A stretch of 46,531 nucleotides of DNA from positions 1 through 46,531 of the forward strand of contig DASYUT010000289.1 in NCBI GenBank assembly GCA_036000965.1, in the 5' to 3' direction. The translations under genes were made by a program, and so were the position numbers. The notes beneath the pieces were generated by a model. The model worked only from the letters and a program-made list of their open reading frames with translations. It searched no databases and was not told the origin of the DNA. Source of the DNA: Actinomycetes bacterium. Lineage in GTDB: Bacteria; Actinomycetota; CALGFH01. The stretch's first letter is position 1. Every line of letters starts with the position of its first letter. This document shows, in pieces, positions 30,124-41,345 of this stretch.

Positions 30124-31305
30124 TCAGTCCTCGGCCGGGTCGAAGGTGTTGTCGGGCCGCGGGTGGACGCGCAGGCCGTGACGCTCGGCCCAGGCGCGCC
30201 GGTCCTCGGACCGCTGCACCGACTCCTCGGCCAGGCGGCGCAGCTCCCGCTCCCTGCGCGGCCTCGCCGCCTGGCGCTGCCCGGCCTCGATCTCCGCGTC
30301 GGCCCTGGCCTCGTCCACCTGCAGCGACAGGTAGGCGAGGCCGCCGAGCGGGATGGGGAGCCAGAAGTTGACCAGGCGATAGGCGAGCACGCCGAGGGTG
30401 GCCGCCCCGACCGGCACGCCGAAGAACGTGAGCAGCGAGATCAGGACCGCCTCTACGACCCCGAGCCCGGCCGGGGTGATCGGCAGGGCGGCCACGACGT
30501 AGGCGAGCCCGAACGCGACGATCAGGCCGTAGATCGGGACCCAGTACCCGAACGCGCCGACGAAGACCCAGAGGGCGGTGGCGGTGCACAGCCAGAAGCC
30601 GAGGTCCCAGACGATCGCCCGGCGGATCAGGTCGCGCTCGCGGGCGAGGGTCTGCAGGCGGTCGGCGAGCCGCAGGGCGATCTCGTACACCCTGTCCTCG
30701 TCGAGGAACGGGATCCGCCCGGCGACCGCGCGCAGGATCCGGGCGGCGCGCTGCTCGCCCCGGATGAGCAGGATGACCAGGGCCGAGAAGCCGCCGATGA
30801 GCACCACGCCGAGCAGGGCGGCGGTGCCGTAGAGGGGGTTGAAGCCGCGCAGCGGGATGGAGACGACCAACCCGAGCCAGAGCAGGAGGTTGAGCACGAC
30901 GGCCGACCCCATACCCTGGGTCGCCATCGCGAAGGCGGCGTCGGTGCCCTTGATCCCGTTCTTGGTGAGCAACCGGAAGCCAAGCGCCCCACCAACCGCC
31001 GACCCCCCGGGGACGACGTGGCTCACCGCCAGGGTCGAGAGCTGGATGCGGGACAGGGTGAAGAAGGGCGGGCTCTGGCCGCGGGGCAGCAGCGCCCTGG
31101 TCAGATTGGTGTAGCAGCACCAGGAGGCGACCTCGAGCGCGATGGCGAGGGGCACGAGCCTCAAGTCCACCTTGCCGAGCAGGTGGAGCGAGTCGCGCAC
31201 CTTCGGCACCTGGGGCAGCACCAGGTAGATGACGACGAATGCGAAGAGCAGGAGCTGGATCACCCGCTTGACCGGAGTCGCCAACGGGGCTCGGGACGTC
31301 GCCAT
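30124..31305 (-). CDS. LPG-synthase transmembrane (UPF0104) family protein
   Basis: A 393-residue integral membrane protein with about eight helices. It matches the lysylphosphatidylglycerol synthase TM / UPF0104 family: SHVVPGGSAVGGALGFRLL in the first half and ALPITPAGLGVVEAVL in the second are the family's conserved loops. It lacks the aminoacyl-transfer domain of MprF, so it is not an LPG synthase by itself. Relatives act in glycolipid or polyprenol-sugar steps. A charged C-terminal tail (about 340-393) is cytoplasmic. No good RBS is seen; ATG 31303-31305 and GTG 31306-31308 are adjacent. A TATACT -10 lies at 31435-31440. Confidence 0.85.
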   Translation of the reverse strand: MATSRAPLATPVKRVIQLLLFAFVVIYLVLPQVPKVRDSLHLLGKVDLRLVPLAIALEVASWCCYTNLTRALLPRGQSPPFFTLSRIQLSTLAVSHVVPGGSAVGGALGFRLLTKNGIKGTDAAFAMATQGMGSAVVLNLLLWLGLVVSIPLRGFNPLYGTAALLGVVLIGGFSALVILLIRGEQRAARILRAVAGRIPFLDEDRVYEIALRLADRLQTLARERDLIRRAIVWDLGFWLCTATALWVFVGAFGYWVPIYGLIVAFGLAYVVAALPITPAGLGVVEAVLISLLTFFGVPVGAATLGVLAYRLVNFWLPIPLGGLAYLSLQVDEARADAEIEAGQRQAARPRRERELRRLAEESVQRSEDRRAWAERHGLRVHPRPDNTFDPAED

Positions 31306-31434
31306 CACGGGCTACCAGGCGGACGCTGGGCCGCGGGCGGGCCGCTTCGCCGCGGGCCGCGCCGGGGCCACGCCGAGCGGCCCGCGCACCAGGAGTGGCG
31401 GGCGCGCAGGGACAGCGCGCGGGGACACAAGACT

Positions 31435-31499: not shown

Positions 31500-32714
31500 C
31501 TACCCGCCGCCACCGAGCCGCGCGAGGAACCCGGCCAGCAGCGCGGTCCGGGGCACCACGCTGCCGAGGTCCAGCCACTCGCGCGGCCCGTGGGCCTCGC
31601 CGCCGATCGGGGCGAAGCCGTCGATGGTGGGCAGGCCGGCCGCTGTCGTTGTGTTGGCGTCCCCAGCCCCGCCGGTGGCCTGCTCACCGACCTCGAAGCC
31701 GAGGGCGGCGGCCACCCGCTGGGCCTCGGCCAGGAGCGCGACGACTGCCTCGGTCCGCTCCATCGGCAGGTGCCGGTGCACGGCCCGGAGGGTGGCGCTG
31801 GTGCCCGGCACGAAGCTGGTCGCCGCGATCTCCTCGACCGCCGCGGCGGCCACGTCGAACGCGGCGGTGGTGACCGCCCGCAGGTCGACCTCGAGGTGGG
31901 CGTGCTCGGCGACCACGTTGGGCCTGGTACCGGCCCGGATCACGCCCACGTTGCAGGTCACCCCTTGCCACCTGCCGTTCAGCTCCTGCAGGGCGACCGT
32001 CTTGCGGGCCGCCTCGAGGGCGGCGTTCACGCCCCGCTCGGGGCGGACGCCGGCGTGCACGGCCTTGCCCACCACGTCGATGGCAAAGGCGGAGATGCCC
32101 TTGCGGGCGGTGACCAGGGACCCGTCGATCCTGGCGGCCTCCAGTCCGATGCCGGCATCGTGCTCGCCCGCCAGGCGGGTCAGCACGGCCCGGCTGAACG
32201 GCGAGCCGATCTCCTCGTCGGGCGTGCAGACCATGGTGATCTCGGCGAAGGCGTCGAACCCGGCTTGGTCGCAGAGCACCTCGACCGCGTCGAAGCCGGT
32301 CACGATCCCGGCCTTGTCGTCGGTCACGCCGGGGCCGAAGGCGCGCCCGTCCTCTACCCGGAACGGCCTGACGGCGGCCGCGCCGTCGTCGAACACGGTG
32401 TCCATGTGGGCCATGAGCAGCAGGCGTCGCCCGCCGCCGGCCACGGGCAGGGCACCCGTGCGCCGCCCGATCACCACGTCGCCCAGGCGGGCTTCGCCCT
32501 GCGGCGGCTCGTGGACCAGGCGCTCGAGCGCCCACCCGGTAGCCCGGAAACGGGCCTCGCACAGGTCGGCGACCCGGTTCACGCCCTCGCGCGACCACGA
32601 CCCGGAGTCCTGGTTCACGAGCTGCTCAAGGGTTGCGAGCGCGCTCTGGTAGCGCCCGCGCACCAGCGGGACCAGGCTCGCGGGGTCGGCGCAGGGGTCG
32701 GCGCAGAGGTCCAT
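31500..32714 (-). CDS. M20 family metallopeptidase (glutamate carboxypeptidase-like)
   Basis: A 404-residue M20 peptidase close in pattern to carboxypeptidase G2. Zinc ligands and catalytic residues are visible: H103 and D105 in MAHMDTV, D132/D133 in GVTDDKAG, the catalytic E167 and E168 in PDEEIG, and a C-terminal histidine in GEAHGP. The lid domain contains KAVHAGVRPERG. These enzymes remove a C-terminal amino acid from a dipeptide or folate-like substrate. It is divergent from the cyanophycin-type Mur ligase through overlapping promoters, so it may cleave a cyanophycin-derived dipeptide; that is inference. The ATG at 32712-32714 lies nine bases beyond a TATACT -10, suggesting a leaderless mRNA. 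Confidence 0.88.
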   Translation of the reverse strand: MDLCADPCADPASLVPLVRGRYQSALATLEQLVNQDSGSWSREGVNRVADLCEARFRATGWALERLVHEPPQGEARLGDVVIGRRTGALPVAGGGRRLLLMAHMDTVFDDGAAAVRPFRVEDGRAFGPGVTDDKAGIVTGFDAVEVLCDQAGFDAFAEITMVCTPDEEIGSPFSRAVLTRLAGEHDAGIGLEAARIDGSLVTARKGISAFAIDVVGKAVHAGVRPERGVNAALEAARKTVALQELNGRWQGVTCNVGVIRAGTRPNVVAEHAHLEVDLRAVTTAAFDVAAAAVEEIAATSFVPGTSATLRAVHRHLPMERTEAVVALLAEAQRVAAALGFEVGEQATGGAGDANTTTAAGLPTIDGFAPIGGEAHGPREWLDLGSVVPRTALLAGFLARLGGGG

Positions 32715-32730: not shown

Positions 32731-32817
32731 GGCCGCCATCCCGGCCGGCGCCTGCCGGCCGTCGCAGCGATCCCTCCGAGGCCCGGCAGTGACCCCGTCC
32801 CCCTCGGGAGGCCAGCG

Positions 32818-34683
32818 TTGAGCCCCCCGCACCCCGAGAACCTCGTCGAGCTGCGCGTCCTCGACGGGCCGAACCTCTACTTCCCGCGCCCCGCCATCAA
32901 GCTCACCCTCGAGGTGTCGGAGCTGCTCGCGCTGCCCGAGACCGAGGCGGTCGCCGTGGCCGAGCAGGCCGCGCTGCCCGGGCTCGCCGCGTCCCCCGAG
33001 GCGCCCGCGTCCGGACCAGAGGACCGGCCGGCCGGACCACACCGCCTGAAGCGGATGAGACCCGGTCCGGCCGGGCGGCCCGGGAGCGAGCAGCGGCGCC
33101 GGTTCGTGGCCCGGCTGGGCGCCCACCTCGTCCGCCGGACCGCAACCGCCGCCGGCGTGGGCCGCCTGGCTGTGCGGGGCCGGCCCGGGCCCGAGCCGAC
33201 CCAGGTGGTGCTGGCCTGGCCCTGGCGCCGCCGCAACGCGGCCGAGGCGCTCGGCGAGGAGGTCGCCGCCCTCCTCGAGGGGCTCACGGTGCGGCCCGAC
33301 CTGGTTGAGCGGGTCCGGCCCGACCGGGTTGAGCGGTTGCGGCCCGACCGGGCCGACCTGGCTGAGCAGATCCGGCCCGACCTGGCTGAGCAGGTCCGGG
33401 CCGCCGGGAGCCGCCTGCGCGAGGTGGAGCCGGGCCCCGGCCCCACCCTACCCGACCCGGACATCCCCGTGGTCGCCGTCACCGGCACCAACGGCAAGAC
33501 CACAGTGACCCGGCTTGTCGCCCACATGGGCCGCCGGGCCGGCCTGCGCGTGGGCTGGTCCAACACCGACGGCATCTACCTCGACGGCGAGCTGGTCGAC
33601 GCCGGGGACTGGTCGGGCCCTGGCGGCGCGCGGCGCGTGCTGTCGGAGCCCGGCGTGGAGCTGGCCGTGCTCGAGACCGCCAGGGGCGGCATCCTGCGTC
33701 GCGGGGTGGGGGTGGCCCACAACGACGTGGCCGTGGTCACCAACATCTCCCCCGACCACCTGGGCCTGGGCGGGATCGACACCCTGGACCAGCTCGCCGA
33801 GGTGAAGGCGACCGTCGTGAAGATCACCCGCCCGACCGGCTGGGTCGTGCTGAACGCCGACGACCCGCGCACCCTGGCCATGCGCCGGCTCTCCAGGGCC
33901 AGGCCGTTCCTGTTCGGTCTCGACCCCGACGCCCCCGGCCTGCGCGAGGCGCTCGAGGAGGGCGGCCGGGCCGCCACCGTGCTCGACGGCGACCTCGTCG
34001 TGCTCACGGGCAGGCAGGTGGACCGCCTGCTGCCGGTGGTGGACGCGCCGGTCACGCTGGCTGGCATCTCCTCCGCCAACCTGGCCAACGCCCTGGCCGC
34101 CGCCGCGGCCGGCCTCGGCCTCGGACTCCCGCGGGCCGCGGTCGTCGAGGGTCTGCGGACCTTCGCGCCAGACCTGGCCCAGAACCCGACCCGCATGAAC
34201 GTCTGGGCGCTGGACGACCGCACGGTCGTGGTCGACGTCGCCCACAACGAGGAGAGCCTGCGCGCCCTGCTCGAGGTCTGCCGGGGCCTGTGCCGGAACG
34301 GGGCGGCCGTGCGGATCGGGATCGGCACCGCCGGCGACCGGCCCGACAGCGTGCTGCGCCTGCTCGGCGAGCTCGCCGCCAGAGGCGCCGACCGGGTCGT
34401 GGTCGTCGAGAAGGAGCGCTACCTGCGCGGCCGCGACCGGGCCGGGATGACCCGGCTGCTCCAGGAGGGCGCCCGCGCCGGCGGCAAGGCCGACGTGCCG
34501 GCCTTCCCCGACGAGCTGGACGGCATCGAGGCGCTGGTGGGGGAGTCGGAGCCGGGCGACGTCTGCGCCCTCATGTGCCACACCCACCGCGACGAGGTGG
34601 CCGCCTGGCTGCGCGACCGTGGCGCTGGCCTGGCCGGCCCCGACGACCTGCGCGCCCTGGTCCTGGCTGCCCGCGGCGGCTAG
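32818..34683 (+). CDS. CphA-like Mur ligase lacking the ATP-grasp domain
   Basis: A 621-residue relative of cyanophycin synthetase with a missing middle. The N-terminal domain keeps the CphA-like start LRVLDGPN and the helix-rich part up to about residue 158. CphA's ATP-grasp domain would follow, but here there is only a repetitive linker of RPDLVERV/RPDLAEQ-type repeats (about 158-198). The Mur ligase module then has TGTNGKTT (K227), ARGGILRRGVG and the SPDHLGLGGIDTLDQL motif, closely matching the C-terminal half of the CphA encoded next to it. In CphA the Mur domain adds arginine to the aspartate side chain, so this protein should ligate an amino acid to a carboxylate. Start TTG 32818 follows GGGAGG by about six bases. 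Confidence 0.82.
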   Translation: MSPPHPENLVELRVLDGPNLYFPRPAIKLTLEVSELLALPETEAVAVAEQAALPGLAASPEAPASGPEDRPAGPHRLKRMRPGPAGRPGSEQRRRFVARLGAHLVRRTATAAGVGRLAVRGRPGPEPTQVVLAWPWRRRNAAEALGEEVAALLEGLTVRPDLVERVRPDRVERLRPDRADLAEQIRPDLAEQVRAAGSRLREVEPGPGPTLPDPDIPVVAVTGTNGKTTVTRLVAHMGRRAGLRVGWSNTDGIYLDGELVDAGDWSGPGGARRVLSEPGVELAVLETARGGILRRGVGVAHNDVAVVTNISPDHLGLGGIDTLDQLAEVKATVVKITRPTGWVVLNADDPRTLAMRRLSRARPFLFGLDPDAPGLREALEEGGRAATVLDGDLVVLTGRQVDRLLPVVDAPVTLAGISSANLANALAAAAAGLGLGLPRAAVVEGLRTFAPDLAQNPTRMNVWALDDRTVVVDVAHNEESLRALLEVCRGLCRNGAAVRIGIGTAGDRPDSVLRLLGELAARGADRVVVVEKERYLRGRDRAGMTRLLQEGARAGGKADVPAFPDELDGIEALVGESEPGDVCALMCHTHRDEVAAWLRDRGAGLAGPDDLRALVLAARGG

Positions 34684-34735
34684 CCCAGGCCCAGCCGGGC
34701 CACCGCCTTCGGCTCCTCGAGCCCTCGACCTCTGC

Positions 34736-37615
34736 TCAGGCCTGGGGTCTGCGGCGGGTCTCGAGTTCGTCGGCGATCGCGTCGACCTTGTCGGCGCAGA
34801 TCACCACCAGGTCGCCCGGGTTGGCCCGGTCCAGGGCGAGCTGGGCCGCCTCCAGCTCGTCGAGCACGACCTGGGTGGCCCGGCAGCGGGCGCCCCGCTT
34901 CATCGCCGCCTTGATCCCGGAAAGGAGCAGCTCGGCGGTTGCGCCCGGCTCCCGGCCGCGCGGGTTGGCGTCCTCGCGCACCACCAGCGCGTCGAAGGAG
35001 GCGGCGGCCACCTCCCCCAGCTCGCGGATGTCGGCGTCGCGGCGGTCGCCCGGGCTGGCCACCACCCCGATGCGGCGGTGGGCGACGACGTCGCCGCCCC
35101 TGGGCGCCTCGGCCAGCCGCTCCACGAAGTCGCCGAGCATGCGCATGGCGTCGGTGTTGTGGCAGTAGTCGACCACGACCCGGAAGCCGTTCAGCTCGAA
35201 CAGGTTGAGCCGCCCAGGCGCGACCTCGTAGGAGGTGGTGAACGAGCGCAGGCCGGCCCGGATGTCGTGCAGGTGGGCGCCGGCGGCGTGGGCGGCCGCG
35301 GCAGCGGCCAGGGCGTTGGCTACGTTCATGCGGGCCCGACCCCCGAAGGTGGCCGGGACGGCGCCCACCGGCGCGACCAGCATCGACCGGCGGCCCTGGC
35401 GCAGCACGATCCCCTCCCCGAGCCGCCCGTCCTCAAGGACCAGGGCCCGGCCGCCGCGGCGGCAGTGGGTCTCGACCAGCTCGTTGCCCGGCTGCATCGA
35501 GAAGTAGACGATGTCGCCCGAGCAGTGCCGGCGCATGGCCGCGACCAGCCGGTCGTCGGCGTTGAGCACACCGTGGCCGTCCCTCGGCACCGCCTCCACC
35601 ACCACCTGCTTGACCGCCGCGAGCTGCTTCAGGGTGTCGATGCCGCGCAGCCCGAGGTGGTCGCCGGTGACGTTGAGGACCACGCCCACGTCGTTGCGCT
35701 CGTACCCGAGGCCCTCGCGCAGGATACCGCCCCTGGCCACCTCGAACACCGCGAAGTCGACCCGCGGGTTCTGCAGCACCATGCGGGCCGAGCGGGGCCC
35801 GGACGCGTCGGCGGTGAGCACCAGCCGCTCGTCGATGAGGATCCCGTCGGTGGTGGTCAGGCCGACCCGGCGCCCCATCCCCTTGAAGACGTGCGCGATC
35901 ATGCGCGCGGTGGTGGTCTTCCCGTTGGTGCCGGTCACCGCGACGATCGGGATGCGGCTGGGCGAGCCGGGCGGGAACAGCAGGTCCAGGACTGGCTTGG
36001 CGACGTACTGGGGCTCGCCCACGGTCGGGTGGGTGTGCATGCGGAACCCTGGGGCCGCGTTCACCTCCACGATCGAACCACCAGTCTCGCGCACGGCCTC
36101 GGCGATGTCGGGCGCGATGAAGTCGATCCCGGCCACGTCGAGCCCGACTACCCGGGCCGCCTCCTCGGCGATCTCGACGTTGTCGGGGTGGGCCTCGTCG
36201 GTCCGGTCGATCGAGATGCCGCCGGTCGACATGTTGCCGGTCAGGGTGAGCTTGACCATGGTGCCCTCTGGGGGCACCCCGTCCATCTCGAAGCCCTGGT
36301 ACCGGACCAGGTCGACGGCCGACTGGTCGACCCGGATGCGGGTCAGCACCTTCTCGTGGCCGACGCCCCGGCGCGGGTCGGCGTTGGTCCGGGCGACCAG
36401 CTCGGCAACGGTGTGCTCGCCGTCTGCGACCACGTGGGCGGGGACCCGCTCGGCGACCGCGACCATGCGGCCGCCGACGACCAGCACCCGGTAGTCGTTG
36501 CCGGTGACGTAGGTCTCGACCAGGACCACGCCCCGGCGCGCCTGCTCCCGGGCCGCGTCGAAGACGGCCCGCACCGCCTCCTCGTCGCGGAGGTCGAGGT
36601 GCACCCCGCGCCCGTGGTTGCCGTCGAGCGGCTTCACCACCACCGGCCAGCCGACCCGTCCGGCCGCGGCGGCCGCGCCGTCGGCCGTGCGGACCGCGAC
36701 CGACCGGGGCACCGGGAGCCCGGCCGCGGCCAGCAGCCGGTTGGTCAGCTCCTTGTCGCCGGCCACGTCGACCGCGAGCGAGGCCGTCTTGGACGTCATG
36801 GTGGCGCGGATGCGCTGCTGCCAGACCCCCTGCCCGAGCTGGACCAGGGAGTAGTCGTTGAGGCGGATGAACGGGATGTCCCGGGACGCCGCCTCGTCGA
36901 GCAGGGTCTGGGTCGAGGGGCCGAACGCGACCCGCTCCGCGGTCAGGATGAAGCGCTCCAGCTCGGTCTGGAAGTCGAAGCCGGCGGACGAGGCCGCCTC
37001 CGGCGGCCCCTCTGCCGAACCGGGCTCGACCAGGTGGTTCAGGAGCCGCACGGCGAGCCTGCCCGCCGCCACTCCCACCTTCTCGTCCCCGTAGCCGTAG
37101 ACGACGTTGTACTGCCCGCGCCGGCCGGCCCCGCGCGTCTTGCCGCGGCGCTGCTCGCCGCCGGCCTCCCGCTGGAACTGCAGGGCCACATGCTCGGCGA
37201 CGTGGCCGAGCCAGGTCCCCTCGCGCAGCCGGTCGACGAACCCACCCCGGCGCCCGGTCGAGCAGCTGTGCTCGGCCAGCCCGGGCAGCAGCTCGAGCAG
37301 CCGGTCGGTGAAGCCGGGCAGGGTGTTGGTCGGCCAGTCCTCCAGCGAGCCGAGGTCCACCAGCAGGTGGATCGCCTTGTCGTAGGACCAGTAGTTGGGC
37401 CCCCGGTAGACCCTGGTCTCGAGGATCGTGAGGTCGGGGCGGGCCGGCGCGACGCCGTCCCCGCTGGCCTGGCGGCGCTGCTTCTCGGCGGCCTCGGCCG
37501 CGCTCTCCGGTGCCACCGGGCGCTTGGACGCTGTTGGTGCCACCGGGCGCGTGGACGCCGTCGGAGCCACCGGTCGCTTGGACGCCGTTGGACGCTCGGC
37601 CACCCCGTCGGTCAT
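34736..37615 (-). CDS. cphA: cyanophycin synthetase CphA
   Basis: A 959-residue full-length CphA, which polymerises aspartate and attaches arginine to each side chain using ATP. After a repeated TASKRPVAP leader (about 10-40) come the N-domain (ETRVYRGPNYW; TWLGHVAEHVALQFQ), the ATP-grasp domain with KPLDGNHGRGV (K328) and EVNAAPGFRMHTHP, and the Mur ligase domain with TGTNGKTT (K566), ARGGILREG and GDHLGLRGIDTL. All sites needed for activity are visible. The ATG at 37613-37615 follows AAAGGGA by five bases; this RBS-start block is copied 49 bases upstream. It is convergent with the ATP-grasp-less paralogue and shares the strand of cyanophycinase. Confidence 0.95.
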   Translation of the reverse strand: MTDGVAERPTASKRPVAPTASTRPVAPTASKRPVAPESAAEAAEKQRRQASGDGVAPARPDLTILETRVYRGPNYWSYDKAIHLLVDLGSLEDWPTNTLPGFTDRLLELLPGLAEHSCSTGRRGGFVDRLREGTWLGHVAEHVALQFQREAGGEQRRGKTRGAGRRGQYNVVYGYGDEKVGVAAGRLAVRLLNHLVEPGSAEGPPEAASSAGFDFQTELERFILTAERVAFGPSTQTLLDEAASRDIPFIRLNDYSLVQLGQGVWQQRIRATMTSKTASLAVDVAGDKELTNRLLAAAGLPVPRSVAVRTADGAAAAAGRVGWPVVVKPLDGNHGRGVHLDLRDEEAVRAVFDAAREQARRGVVLVETYVTGNDYRVLVVGGRMVAVAERVPAHVVADGEHTVAELVARTNADPRRGVGHEKVLTRIRVDQSAVDLVRYQGFEMDGVPPEGTMVKLTLTGNMSTGGISIDRTDEAHPDNVEIAEEAARVVGLDVAGIDFIAPDIAEAVRETGGSIVEVNAAPGFRMHTHPTVGEPQYVAKPVLDLLFPPGSPSRIPIVAVTGTNGKTTTARMIAHVFKGMGRRVGLTTTDGILIDERLVLTADASGPRSARMVLQNPRVDFAVFEVARGGILREGLGYERNDVGVVLNVTGDHLGLRGIDTLKQLAAVKQVVVEAVPRDGHGVLNADDRLVAAMRRHCSGDIVYFSMQPGNELVETHCRRGGRALVLEDGRLGEGIVLRQGRRSMLVAPVGAVPATFGGRARMNVANALAAAAAAHAAGAHLHDIRAGLRSFTTSYEVAPGRLNLFELNGFRVVVDYCHNTDAMRMLGDFVERLAEAPRGGDVVAHRRIGVVASPGDRRDADIRELGEVAAASFDALVVREDANPRGREPGATAELLLSGIKAAMKRGARCRATQVVLDELEAAQLALDRANPGDLVVICADKVDAIADELETRRRPQA

Positions 37616-37802
37616 GGCGCTCCCTTTCTGCACGTACCATCCCGGGTGCGCCCGCCGTGCTCATGGCGCTCCCTTTCTGCACGACCGGCTCCTGCCACGC
37701 CCACCGGGACGGTCGGGCGCTCCTTCAACGGTCGGGCGCTCCTTCAGTGGTGAGAACCCGGGGCTGTCGCTTCCAGTGGTGAGAACCGTGGCCTGTCGCT
37801 TC
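37612..37802. repeat. three different duplications upstream of cphA
   Basis: A 23-base block with the cphA RBS and start codon (37612-37634) recurs perfectly at 37661-37683. A 19-base unit is then perfectly tandem (37709-37727 and 37728-37746). A 29-base unit follows in tandem with three mismatches (37745-37773 and 37774-37802). No gene lies in this 258-base gap. Confidence 0.9.
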
Positions 37803-37873: not shown

Positions 37874-38956
37874 TCATTGTGAAGCCTCCTCGCTGGTGTG
37901 CGCGCCCGGGTGCGGGTCCGCGCGGTGAGGAATGCGGTCGGCCGCACCCTCGGCGTCGACCGCCTGCGCGAGCCGGCGGGCGGCCGGGTCCCGCCTCGGA
38001 GAGGCCCGCCGCCCCCGGGCCGGCCGCGCCTCCTCCACGGGGGGCAGCGACTGCAGGCGGGGGAGCAGCGCCCGCTTGGCCAGGTCGAACCGGTACCCGG
38101 GCGGGAGCGAGTGCACCACCGCGCCCGACACCAGGATGGGCCGGCTCTGGCGCACCTCGAAGGCGTCGGAGACGACGTCGGAGCCGTCCACGATCGTGAC
38201 GGCGCCCTTGCCGAGGACCTCGAGCACGCCGTCGGCGGAGATCACGGCGGCGGTGTCCTCGTCCAGCCCGAGGCCGAGCTGCCCAGGCGACTGGGCCACC
38301 AGGGTGAGCAGGCGCCCGATGCGGTTGCGCTGGCCGAAATGCTGGTCGACGATGACGCCGGGCAGCAGGCCGAGCCCCACGCCGAGCTGGCCCATCCGCT
38401 GCCTCGGGGTCTCGCCGGGCCGCCCGAACGACACCATGTGGGTCGAGAGCGCGCTCGCCCCCGCCGAGGTGCCGCCGACCACCGCGCCGCGTCCGTGCGC
38501 CTCGACCAGCGCGCGGCCGAGGCTGGTCGCCTCGACCACCATCGACAGACGGAGCTGGTTGCCGCCGGTCATGAACACCCCGGTCGCGCCGCGCACGGCC
38601 GCGACCGCCTCGGGTGCCTCAGCCTCGGCGCGGGTCGAGGGCCGCAGGCCGTGGACCTCGGCCGCGCCGAGCTCGAGGAACAGTCTGCGGTACAGCTCGG
38701 TGATCTCGTGGCCCAGGGAGGAAGCGGTCGAGATGACCGCGATCCGTGCCGACGGCCCGCCGGCGAGCTGCACGAAGCGGTTCAGGATGGTCTTGTTGCC
38801 GAGCTTGTCCTCCGCGCCGCCGATGGCCATGAGGACGCCGGCTCCCGTGCGGGAGGAATCGGAAGGCATGCGGCAGTGTAACAAGCGCTCCCCGCCTGCC
38901 CGCCCGGCTCGCTGGCGCGCTGCGCGGAAGACGGTCGGCGTGCGGACCGTCGTCAT
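37874..38956 (-). CDS. cphB: cyanophycinase
   Basis: A serine-protease-like cyanophycinase that releases beta-Asp-Arg dipeptides from cyanophycin. The core has LMAIGGAEDK, the TGGNQLRL segment and the nucleophile elbow GGTSAGAS (S164 in the long form). It also has VDQHFGQRNRIGRLL and GLGLDEDTAAV. The last 55 residues are an arginine-rich tail, not typical of the family. Starting at 38956 gives 360 residues and an ATGA overlap with the upstream lipoprotein gene. Starting at the ATG at 38869 (331 residues) removes a low-complexity N-terminus and fits a leaderless transcript from TACACT (38875-38880). I favour the coupled start slightly. No signal peptide is seen, so it is intracellular. Confidence 0.88.
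   Translation of the reverse strand: MTTVRTPTVFRAARQRAGRAGGERLLHCRMPSDSSRTGAGVLMAIGGAEDKLGNKTILNRFVQLAGGPSARIAVISTASSLGHEITELYRRLFLELGAAEVHGLRPSTRAEAEAPEAVAAVRGATGVFMTGGNQLRLSMVVEATSLGRALVEAHGRGAVVGGTSAGASALSTHMVSFGRPGETPRQRMGQLGVGLGLLPGVIVDQHFGQRNRIGRLLTLVAQSPGQLGLGLDEDTAAVISADGVLEVLGKGAVTIVDGSDVVSDAFEVRQSRPILVSGAVVHSLPPGYRFDLAKRALLPRLQSLPPVEEARPARGRRASPRRDPAARRLAQAVDAEGAADRIPHRADPHPGAHTSEEASQ
38875..38880 (-). promoter_or_regulatory. possible internal -10 (TACACT) for cyanophycinase
   Basis: TACACT on the minus strand ends five bases before the internal ATG at 38869. That would give a leaderless mRNA independent of the upstream operon. No -35 is recognisable. Confidence 0.3.
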
Positions 38957-39552
38957 CGGCTGCCCGTCACGGCGGAGGCGTCGAGTTTGGCGCGGCCGTG
39001 GGTGGTCTCCCGGACGAGCTTGCGCACCGCGTCTCGGGTGACGAAGCTGAGCGCCAGGGTCACCTCGCCGATCGGGCCGGCCCGTTCCTCGGTCTTGAAC
39101 TGGAAGCGGTAGGTGACGCAGCCACCCTTGAACAGGTAGAAGCGGGTGCCGGTGAAGCCGACCCCCGGGCGGACCTCGCCGATCTGCTCATAGCGCCGCG
39201 TCCCGGGCTCGTCGGAGGGCACCCTGGTGGCCTTGAGGCTCCCGAACTGGCAGGTCCGCTCGAGAACCACCTGCACCGCATGGGGGCCGACCCGGTCGGA
39301 GTCGAGCGCGAACCGGGCCCGCCCGCTGCGGACGAACGCGTCGCTCACGCTCCACCCGGCCGGCAGCAGCTCGATGCAGGGCAGCTGGGTGGCCGACGGG
39401 ACCGCCTGGGCCATGAGGACCACGAACTGGGTGCCCGGGTCGCCGCGGTGCTCGCAGAAGGGCTGGCGGGACTGGGCGAACTCGTGGGAAGCGGGCCGGG
39501 CACAGCCGGCCAGGAGCAGGCAGGCCAGCGCGAGCAGCGGCAGGCGCCTCAC
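38953..39552 (-). CDS. lipoprotein of unknown function
   Basis: A 199-residue predicted lipoprotein: short basic start, hydrophobic core and the lipobox LLAGC with C17. The mature part has further cysteines (for example FCEHRGD, LPCIELL, RTCQFGS, GGCVTYRF) that could form disulfides outside the cell. A beta-rich middle part reads VQVVLERTCQFGSLKATRV. I do not recognise a family. Its GTG overlaps the kinase-fusion stop (GTGA, 39549-39552) and its stop overlaps a cyanophycinase ATG (ATGA, 38953-38956), so the three genes form one tightly coupled operon. Confidence 0.72.
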   Translation of the reverse strand: MRRLPLLALACLLLAGCARPASHEFAQSRQPFCEHRGDPGTQFVVLMAQAVPSATQLPCIELLPAGWSVSDAFVRSGRARFALDSDRVGPHAVQVVLERTCQFGSLKATRVPSDEPGTRRYEQIGEVRPGVGFTGTRFYLFKGGCVTYRFQFKTEERAGPIGEVTLALSFVTRDAVRKLVRETTHGRAKLDASAVTGSR

Positions 39553-41189
39553 AGGAGCCCGGCCGCCTGCAGGTTGCCGATCGCCGCCAGCAGCGCGAGC
39601 AGGCCGAGCAGAAGCACCCCGAGCATCAGGCCGACCCGGCGCAGGCTCCAGTGCTGGGTCGAGATTGGGGCCGGCCGCTCGGGCAGCAGCCGCAGGAACT
39701 CGTCGTGCAGGTCGCGTCCCTGCTCGCGCATCCACCGCCGAAGCTGGGACGGCATGGTGATCCCGTGGGTGGCGGCGAACGCCTCGCTGATCTCGTCGTC
39801 CCTGAACTGCAGCCTCGCCCGCTGGTAGACCCGTTCGGGGCTGGAGCGGGTGGCCAGCACCAGCAGCATGTTGGCCAGGTCGACCGCCTGCCGCCAGGGG
39901 CTCGGCCGGACCTCGGCGAAGAACACGTCGATCAGGTGGACCCTGCCCTCGCGGACGAGCAGGTTGGCCGGCTTGATGTCGCGGTGGGCCAGGCCGGCGT
40001 CCCACAGCCTTCGGATGATGCGCAGGCCGTCGTCGATGATGGCCTCGTCGACCTCCGCGTCGCCGATCTCCTGGGCGCCGTCGAAGAACTCGGTGACGAC
40101 CATGTACTCGCGCTCGGGGGTGATCTCGACGATGCCGAACGGCTCCGGGCTGCGCACGCCGGCCCCGTGCAGCAGGCGCAGGGCGTGGTCCTCCTGTTGC
40201 ACCAGCCGGCGGACGGTGTTGAAGGGCTTCTCGTCCTCCAGCCGGCCGTACAGCAGGGTGCGGCCGAGCTTGTACCAGCGGTCGGCGCGCAGGTGGCTGC
40301 GGGCGTAGAGCTTGGCGAACAGGTAGGTGTTCGGGTCGCCCTTGGCGCAGACCCGCAGCGGAGTGGAGCCGGCCGAGCCGGACAGCCCGAACGGCTTGAT
40401 CTCGAGCACCTGGATGCCGAGCTGGTCCTCCAGGGCCCGGTGGATGGCCTGCCCGCGGCGCCCGCCGACGTCCAGGTGGGCGGCGCGGCCGTGCCGGTAG
40501 CTGACCGGGAACACCTCGTTCGGGGCGAGCAGCCGGAACGCGACCAGCGGGATGGTGACCCCGATGATCACACCGATCACCACGTCGGTGGGCGAGTTCA
40601 CGGCCAGGTACACCAGGGCGACCGACAGCGCCGTGACCAGCACGCCTGCCAGCAGCTTGCCGAGCTGGCGGAGCCGGCCCTGGGGTAGGAGGGCATACAG
40701 CATGCCGACCACGGTGGCGGTGAACACCGCGACCGGGCGGGATGGGTGCGCCGCGCCGGTCCAGTCGCCGAGGATCTCGACGCCGAGCGGACGGGGCCGC
40801 ATGAACAGGTAGGCGAACAGGGAGCTGAGCGCGATCACCCCGACGACGGCGCCGAGGAAGACGAACAGGTGCCGGAAGCGGCGGGGGACCAGCAGCACGA
40901 GCATCGTGGCCCAGAACAGGCCACGGATCGTCCAGCGGGACCCGAGCGCATGCACCGCCTGCATGAGATCGGTCAGGGCGCCGCTCCGCAGCCGCGAGAC
41001 CCAGTCGAGCAGCGTCAGGTCGAACGCGAGGATGTAGTTGTTGGTGCGGCTGCTGGCGAGCGCGGCGAGCCACAGCAGCAGCACCACGCCAGTCGCGGCG
41101 AGCCAGTATCGGACAGTGGTCAAGGGGCGCGGCAGCGGCGGCGCCTCGCCAGAGGGACGGCGACGCCGGCCGGACCGCGAGATCCGCAT
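39549..41189 (-). CDS. PAP2-like membrane domain fused to a kinase-like domain
   Basis: A 546-residue fusion. The N-terminal half (about 25-240) has roughly six membrane helices and a PAP2-type layout (MRPRPLG ... HPSRPV ... VNSPTDVVIG). The two catalytic histidines of lipid phosphatases are not where expected: PSGH is PSRP, and the last motif has Asn in place of His. The C-terminal half (about 265-500) is a protein/lipid-kinase-like domain with H402-R-D404-IKPANLL and DVFF in place of DFG. A final helix (about 520-543) anchors the end. It may phosphorylate a membrane lipid or act as a pseudoenzyme. The ATG 41187-41189 is chosen over an upstream extension; TACGGT nearby may be its -10. Confidence 0.7.
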   Translation of the reverse strand: MRISRSGRRRRPSGEAPPLPRPLTTVRYWLAATGVVLLLWLAALASSRTNNYILAFDLTLLDWVSRLRSGALTDLMQAVHALGSRWTIRGLFWATMLVLLVPRRFRHLFVFLGAVVGVIALSSLFAYLFMRPRPLGVEILGDWTGAAHPSRPVAVFTATVVGMLYALLPQGRLRQLGKLLAGVLVTALSVALVYLAVNSPTDVVIGVIIGVTIPLVAFRLLAPNEVFPVSYRHGRAAHLDVGGRRGQAIHRALEDQLGIQVLEIKPFGLSGSAGSTPLRVCAKGDPNTYLFAKLYARSHLRADRWYKLGRTLLYGRLEDEKPFNTVRRLVQQEDHALRLLHGAGVRSPEPFGIVEITPEREYMVVTEFFDGAQEIGDAEVDEAIIDDGLRIIRRLWDAGLAHRDIKPANLLVREGRVHLIDVFFAEVRPSPWRQAVDLANMLLVLATRSSPERVYQRARLQFRDDEISEAFAATHGITMPSQLRRWMREQGRDLHDEFLRLLPERPAPISTQHWSLRRVGLMLGVLLLGLLALLAAIGNLQAAGLL

Positions 41190-41345
41190 GGGGCGGGACC
41201 GTACCGGCTCGCCGCCGGTAAGGGGTGGGTGCCGCAGCGTGGGTTCCACCAACAAGCTCCTGGGGTCCAATGCGGGCGATCGCCACCCGGCGCGGCTCGA
41301 CGGCAAGTGTAGCCTGTGCAAACGGGCTGCAACAGGAGGAAGGTC

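Follow-up and report, generated by a model that had tools for sequence, protein, structure and literature searches.

What does a CphA-related gene without an ATP-grasp domain do beside a complete cyanophycin synthetase gene? In the cyanophycin pathway, synthesis by CphA1 (or CphA2) is followed by breakdown by cyanophycinase and hydrolysis by a dipeptidase. The stretch of DNA analysed here (46,531 bp, contig DASYUT010000289.1 of an Actinomycetes bacterium; hereafter the window) carries such a gene next to cphA, and it could be a broken copy of cphA, a partner of CphA or a ligase with chemistry of its own. We compared its domains, relatives, substrate pocket and gene neighbourhood with those of CphA.

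Domain composition of the protein beside CphA

The features of the locus are listed in Table 1. The larger gene scored 1142.6 bits against TIGR02068, the cyanophycin synthetase equivalog, in agreement with the initial annotation, which had placed the shorter gene convergent to a full CphA. The shorter reading frame was open throughout, with no internal stops or frameshifts, and its TTG start agrees with the start position in relatives. In Pfam searches its product matched Mur_ligase_M and Mur_ligase_C only, with no ATP-grasp family found at E ≤ 1. TIGR02068 gave 372 bits, below the curated cut-off of 850 bits, and covered profile positions 478–851, the M part alone. We refer to this arrangement of a CphA-type N domain and a Mur module as N-M. 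A search of the window genome (6.47 Mb, 99% complete) with the N-M protein returned only the protein itself and the adjoining CphA. A promoter and terminator scan gave nothing.

Table 1. Features of the N-M/cphA locus in the window
Feature	Position	Strand	Basis
M20 metallopeptidase, gene running divergently from N-M	31500..32714	-	profile searches, locus comparison
Shine-Dalgarno-like GGGAGG before the TTG start	32806..32811	+	sequence
N-M protein, 621 aa: CphA-type N domain and Mur-ligase module	32818..34683	+	Pfam, TIGR02068, HHalign, AlphaFold/Foldseek
N domain (residues 1-157), homologue of that of CphA	32818..33288	+	HHalign, AlphaFold/Foldseek
Linker of RPDLxE type (a 24-bp tandem repeat), private to the window genome	33288..33403	+	sequence, relatives aligned
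Mur core, residues 215-455: P-loop GTNGKTT, ETARGG, TN..DH, K330	33460..34182	+	alignment
Mur lid/C-terminal domain, residues 456-600: DVAHNE, GDR, YLRGR	34183..34617	+	Pfam, alignment
Y535-L-R-G-R539, family signature where MurE has DNPR and CphA ED..LRGR	34420..34434	+	alignment
Complete cyanophycin synthetase of CphA1 type, Cx19HxxEH present; convergent to the N-M gene; ATG at 37615 as alternative start	34736..37633	-	TIGR02068, translation
Cyanophycinase (S51)	37874..38956	-	profile searches

Pfam found no match, PF18921 included, on the N part of the window protein. HHalign of this part with local CphA N domains gave a probability of 92–96% (E ∼2e-7, for a single comparison), and residues 1–210 modelled alone by AlphaFold reached a pLDDT of 84.7. 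When this isolated model was searched by Foldseek against ∼350,000 PDB chains, ranks 1–14 were all CphA1 or CphA2 (probability 0.90–1.00) and the matches after rank 14 were unrelated (≤0.25). Structure matching could have revealed that the N part is something other than a CphA N domain; no such result was obtained, and the CphA-like N domain described in the initial annotation is borne out. The best Foldseek matches of the whole model (pLDDT 91.5) were CphA1 chains, with a query-TM of 0.70–0.72 vs. ∼0.50 for MurE; the large rmsd of the whole-model match is probably due to the alignment spanning the missing domain.

The N domain differs from that of CphA in two respects. Cx19HxxEH, the zinc-protease motif of CphA1, is present in 83% of CphA1s at nr70 (PMC9262961). 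It is absent from the window N-M protein, and our motif count found the full motif in 98 of 112 CphAs and HxxEH in a single one of 153 N-M proteins. The net charge of the N domain has a median of +7 in N-M proteins vs. −4 in CphAs, and the ligand of the basic N-M domain may differ from that of CphA.

The N part is ∼155 aa long in the N-M family and 210 aa in the window copy. In the closest relatives (71–72% identity over the M part) the N part is devoid of RPDLxE repeats, and the linker is therefore an insertion private to the window genome. Both the alignment and the AlphaFold model show the N domain running on to the Mur core with nothing of ATP-grasp between them. The repeats had been described as replacing the ATP-grasp domain: they exist, but the replacement role does not hold, and the linker was rejected as a functional stand-in since the aligned relatives do without it.

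The Mur module, described in the initial annotation as apparently complete, was found to be so. Among 48 N-M members the P-loop, ETARGG, DH, K330, R459, AHN and GDR were invariant or nearly so, and the window copy has every one of them. The loss of these residues in relatives, which would have pointed to a decaying gene, was thus looked for and did not occur. At 10 conserved positions the window copy does not follow the family consensus, as a decaying cphA copy might not. We give that explanation next to no credence and rejected it: the frame is intact, dN/dS to the nearest relative is ∼0.45 (vs. 0.32 for CphA), and the family is kept across several phyla. The Mur catalytic residues are invariant, and the N-M gene is therefore not decaying.

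Distribution, ancestry and association with cphA

The N-M (YLRGR) family is defined here by N-M architecture, a YLRGR loop and a locus with cphA and cphB, and the window protein has all three. In the genome collection, N-M relatives turned up on 100 contigs, most of them from Nocardioides and Marmoricola, with further members in Kytococcus, Chloroflexota and Thermomicrobiales. Alphaproteobacterial operons of the order cphB-cphA-NM were also found on plasmids, two from Ruegeria, one from Shinella and one from a strain that bears the label Roseateles, with the last gene annotated merely as a "Mur ligase family protein." In Kytococcus and family f35, N-M proteins (L014, L018, L093) end in an additional C-terminal extension of ∼150 aa that looks TPR-repeat-like. 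In some Chloroflexota N-M genes (L113:7560, G396, G400) a TAG codon lies within the profile match, in L113 near the C-terminus.

Whether the same architecture occurs beside cphA elsewhere in Actinomycetota had been raised at the outset. In a 396-genome sample of that phylum, the genomes with N-M and those with a full or partial cphA were the same 23. In the Chloroflexota group (251 genomes), CphA was found in 27 and an N-M protein in 23 of these, 17 with the YLRGR family and 6 with a related third N-M group; the other 4 had CphA only. The third group has the loop KRDP.FLRGR, does not adjoin cphA in the loci examined (L162–L164), and occurs in large Chloroflexota genomes alongside IaaA. No genome in the two phylum surveys had N-M without cphA.

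Two of the explanations we considered turn on this association. The first takes N-M as mainly a structural partner, which would assemble with CphA into mixed oligomers and adjust chain length or granule formation. Strict co-occurrence and the domains in common with CphA fit this role, but all ATP-binding and catalytic motifs are kept, which a scaffold would not need, and we see only a small chance that it is correct. The second takes N-M as the maker of a separate small isopeptide, merely co-located with the cyanophycin genes. The third N-M group agrees with this in its position away from cphA; the absence of any N-M without cphA from both surveys (the single match in MAG G397, which may be incomplete, being the one case to note) speaks against it, and its chance is slim.

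In M-domain trees, the N-M family formed a branch apart from all CphAs (bootstrap 95/SH-aLRT 91); the trees do not fix the order in which N-M, its alphaproteobacterial counterpart, the third N-M group and CphA diverged. The M-domain core of N-M is 40–45% identical to CphA M. The initial annotation had called the protein a CphA paralogue that lost its ATP-grasp domain. This part is not sustained: because N-M branches apart from all CphAs, the M-domain tree, as far as sequences go, offers no evidence of a loss, and CphA may equally have gained the domain. We conclude that N-M is a real and conserved relative of CphA whose reduction is the reverse of that in CphA2. No description of the family was found in our searches of the open-access literature, and it is described nowhere in the literature so searched.

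The amino-acid pocket and the dipeptidases

In MurE of S. aureus, two acidic residues hold the side chain of the lysine: Asp-406, within the DNPA motif, and Glu-460, which lies on a later loop (PMC3829189). The corresponding loop of 61 CphAs contained an acidic pair in which both E and D were present in 61/61 (typically ED..LRGR), and the terminal D of the later strand C-V-D was found in 60/61. In 87 N-M proteins, the loop had Tyr in all 87 (YLRGR) and no conserved acid; an Arg followed the later strand in 84, again with no conserved acid. On the acceptor side, Ser542 of SuCphA1, invariant in the aligned CphAs, is Gly in every N-M protein. The amine added by N-M is probably not arginine, because both acidic elements of the CphA pocket are replaced by Tyr and Arg; the evidence for this is moderate, with the pocket assigned by homology to MurE and the loop alignment offset by one residue.

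The pocket bears directly on the proposal that N-M works on its own as a side-chain ligase for arginine, filling in or repairing Asp residues that CphA left undecorated. Its N and M domains are those of CphA, its M-domain core shows the identity to CphA M given above, and its association with CphA is constant. Against this stand the pocket acids, common to all CphAs examined and missing across the N-M family, and the Ser542 to Gly change, so that we consider an arginine ligase unlikely. Of the products suggested at the outset, arginine finishing or editing is thus weakened, and diversified side chains or another isopeptide are favoured.

A second line of evidence came from the isoaspartyl dipeptidases. 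PF01112 (IaaA) was detected in 2 of 39 genomes with the YLRGR family vs. 10 of 10 CphA genomes without it (Fisher p = 8e-9), where the ten include genomes of the third N-M group, phylogeny is an uncorrected confounder of both counts and test, and the dipeptide hydrolase CphZ (M14) lies outside the comparison. IadA was above its cut-off in 0 of 49 genomes. At the level of loci, a cphA-isoaspartyl peptidase-cphB operon was present in 6/6 loci without the YLRGR family, and in 4/4 operons with N-M the isoaspartyl peptidase was absent. In a published survey, each of the 35 CphA-bearing Actinomycetota genomes was reported to have IadA and/or IaaA (PMC10206079); contrary to that 100%, our profile searches found IaaA/IadA missing from cphA-bearing Actinomycetota. 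We concluded that the N-M family tends to exclude IaaA. IaaA may be absent because, if promiscuous, it would destroy the β-aspartyl isopeptides that N-M is proposed to make; alternatively, N-M itself would process the dipeptide.

The window genome has neither IaaA nor IadA, and for this reason the M20 peptidase encoded on the other side of the N-M gene, in divergent orientation, may be a candidate β-Asp-Arg dipeptidase. An M20 peptidase also adjoins the N-M gene in Chloroflexota and other actinobacterial loci; the Nocardioides N-M loci are without it. The fatty-acid, molybdenum-cofactor, SURF1, SerB and transporter neighbours in Nocardioides were considered as substrate clues and set aside as ordinary chromosomal context. 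Elsewhere in the window, a protein with PAP2-like and RIO/Kdo-kinase-like domains is encoded upstream of the cyanophycinase gene (39549–41321, − strand), and a flippase-like membrane protein at 30124–31308.

Our leading, still tentative, reading is that N-M is an intact, ancient, cyanophycin-dedicated ligase that modifies cyanophycin or β-Asp-Arg fragments with a non-arginine amine. Architecture, conservation, cphA association and pocket differences were computed, and from them we infer acceptor, chemistry and amine as follows. The N domain, judged by its fold and the gene context, would hold cyanophycin or a β-Asp-Arg fragment. The M module would phosphorylate a carboxylate on this acceptor with ATP to give an acyl phosphate, which would be joined to a non-arginine amine: a dipeptide, or an amino acid that is neutral or acidic. 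Cyanophycin would in this way be capped, branched or re-used in some other form, in organisms mostly without IaaA. As a possible but doubtful variant, N-M would open a separate branch of cyanophycin metabolism: the β-Asp-Arg set free by cyanophycinase, or the polymer end, would undergo ATP-dependent ligation instead of hydrolysis by IaaA, and cyanophycin would supply or bear an undescribed isopeptide product.

MurF adds a dipeptide, and N-M might act as a Mur-type re-polymerase or dipeptide processor, in which β-Asp-Arg from cyanophycinase serves as the amine donor and is joined to the chain end; N-M would then be a counterpart of CphA2 that works on the M site, not the ATP-grasp site. N-M is without the N-domain zinc motif, as is CphA2 (PMC9262961), and it tends to exclude IaaA, which destroys β-Asp-Arg. 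Such a reaction requires a new acceptor carboxylate and the sequence gives no sign of a dipeptide pocket, which makes it rather improbable. The reverse Mur reaction, with ATP formed from β-Asp-Arg, was dismissed as thermodynamically unlikely on general grounds.

Significance and comparison with known systems

With N-M present as a fourth enzyme wherever the sampled Actinomycetota genomes have cphA, and with its tendency to exclude IaaA, the pathway or the polymer itself would differ in these bacteria. For polymer engineering, N-M would be a natural ligase with which other side chains could be introduced, and it lets one ask whether CphA arose via insertion of ATP-grasp into an N-M ancestor.

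The family has probably been met before. A study of Tetrasphaera reported transcription of a "shorter copy of cphA," which it counted as cphA without describing the domains (PMC10687191). Locus L175 contains glgA, glgC, serB, cphB, cphA and N-M; because this gene content is the same as that reported, the Tetrasphaera short copy is probably an N-M gene.

Proteins with N and M domains and most of ATP-grasp missing are also encoded in Legionella adelaidensis (L188) and Deinococcus deserti (L183). Unlike N-M, they lie within the CphA clade, and the Legionella copy has Cx19HxxEH; by their position in the sequence tree, these are independent losses of ATP-grasp within that clade. The Legionella protein (plasmid, L188:5323–7191) is a 622-aa CphA relative with a tiny ATP-grasp remnant and an intact Mur module; its gene adjoins genes for cyanophycinase and isoaspartyl peptidase, with no cphA within the 13 kb examined. 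Deinococcus plasmids carry CphA paralogues in which ATP-grasp is missing or degenerate (L183:5056–7230, L185:4864–7380, L187:6687–8768); the L183 copy, from which most of ATP-grasp is gone, and the L185 copy, the two of these placed in the tree, fall inside the CphA clade.

N-M resembles MurE and MurF in its Mur core and C-terminal fold and in the P-loop, lysine and DH motifs, but has neither an N-terminal match of Mur type, the part with which MurE binds UDP-MurNAc, nor DNPR/DNPA, and carries a CphA N domain and YLRGR instead. With CphA1 (TIGR02068; PDB 7lg5/7lgq) it shares the N-domain fold, the Mur core and lid, the catalytic motifs and the locus; it differs in the absence of ATP-grasp and Cx19HxxEH, in YLRGR in place of ED..LRGR, and in its separate M-domain branch. 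Cyanobacterial CphA2 (PDB 8fxh/8fxi) is likewise reduced in architecture, has an N domain free of the zinc motif, and acts beside CphA1. As the initial annotation had recognised, it is the reverse case: CphA2 retains ATP-grasp and has lost its Mur activity, whereas N-M has the Mur module and no ATP-grasp.
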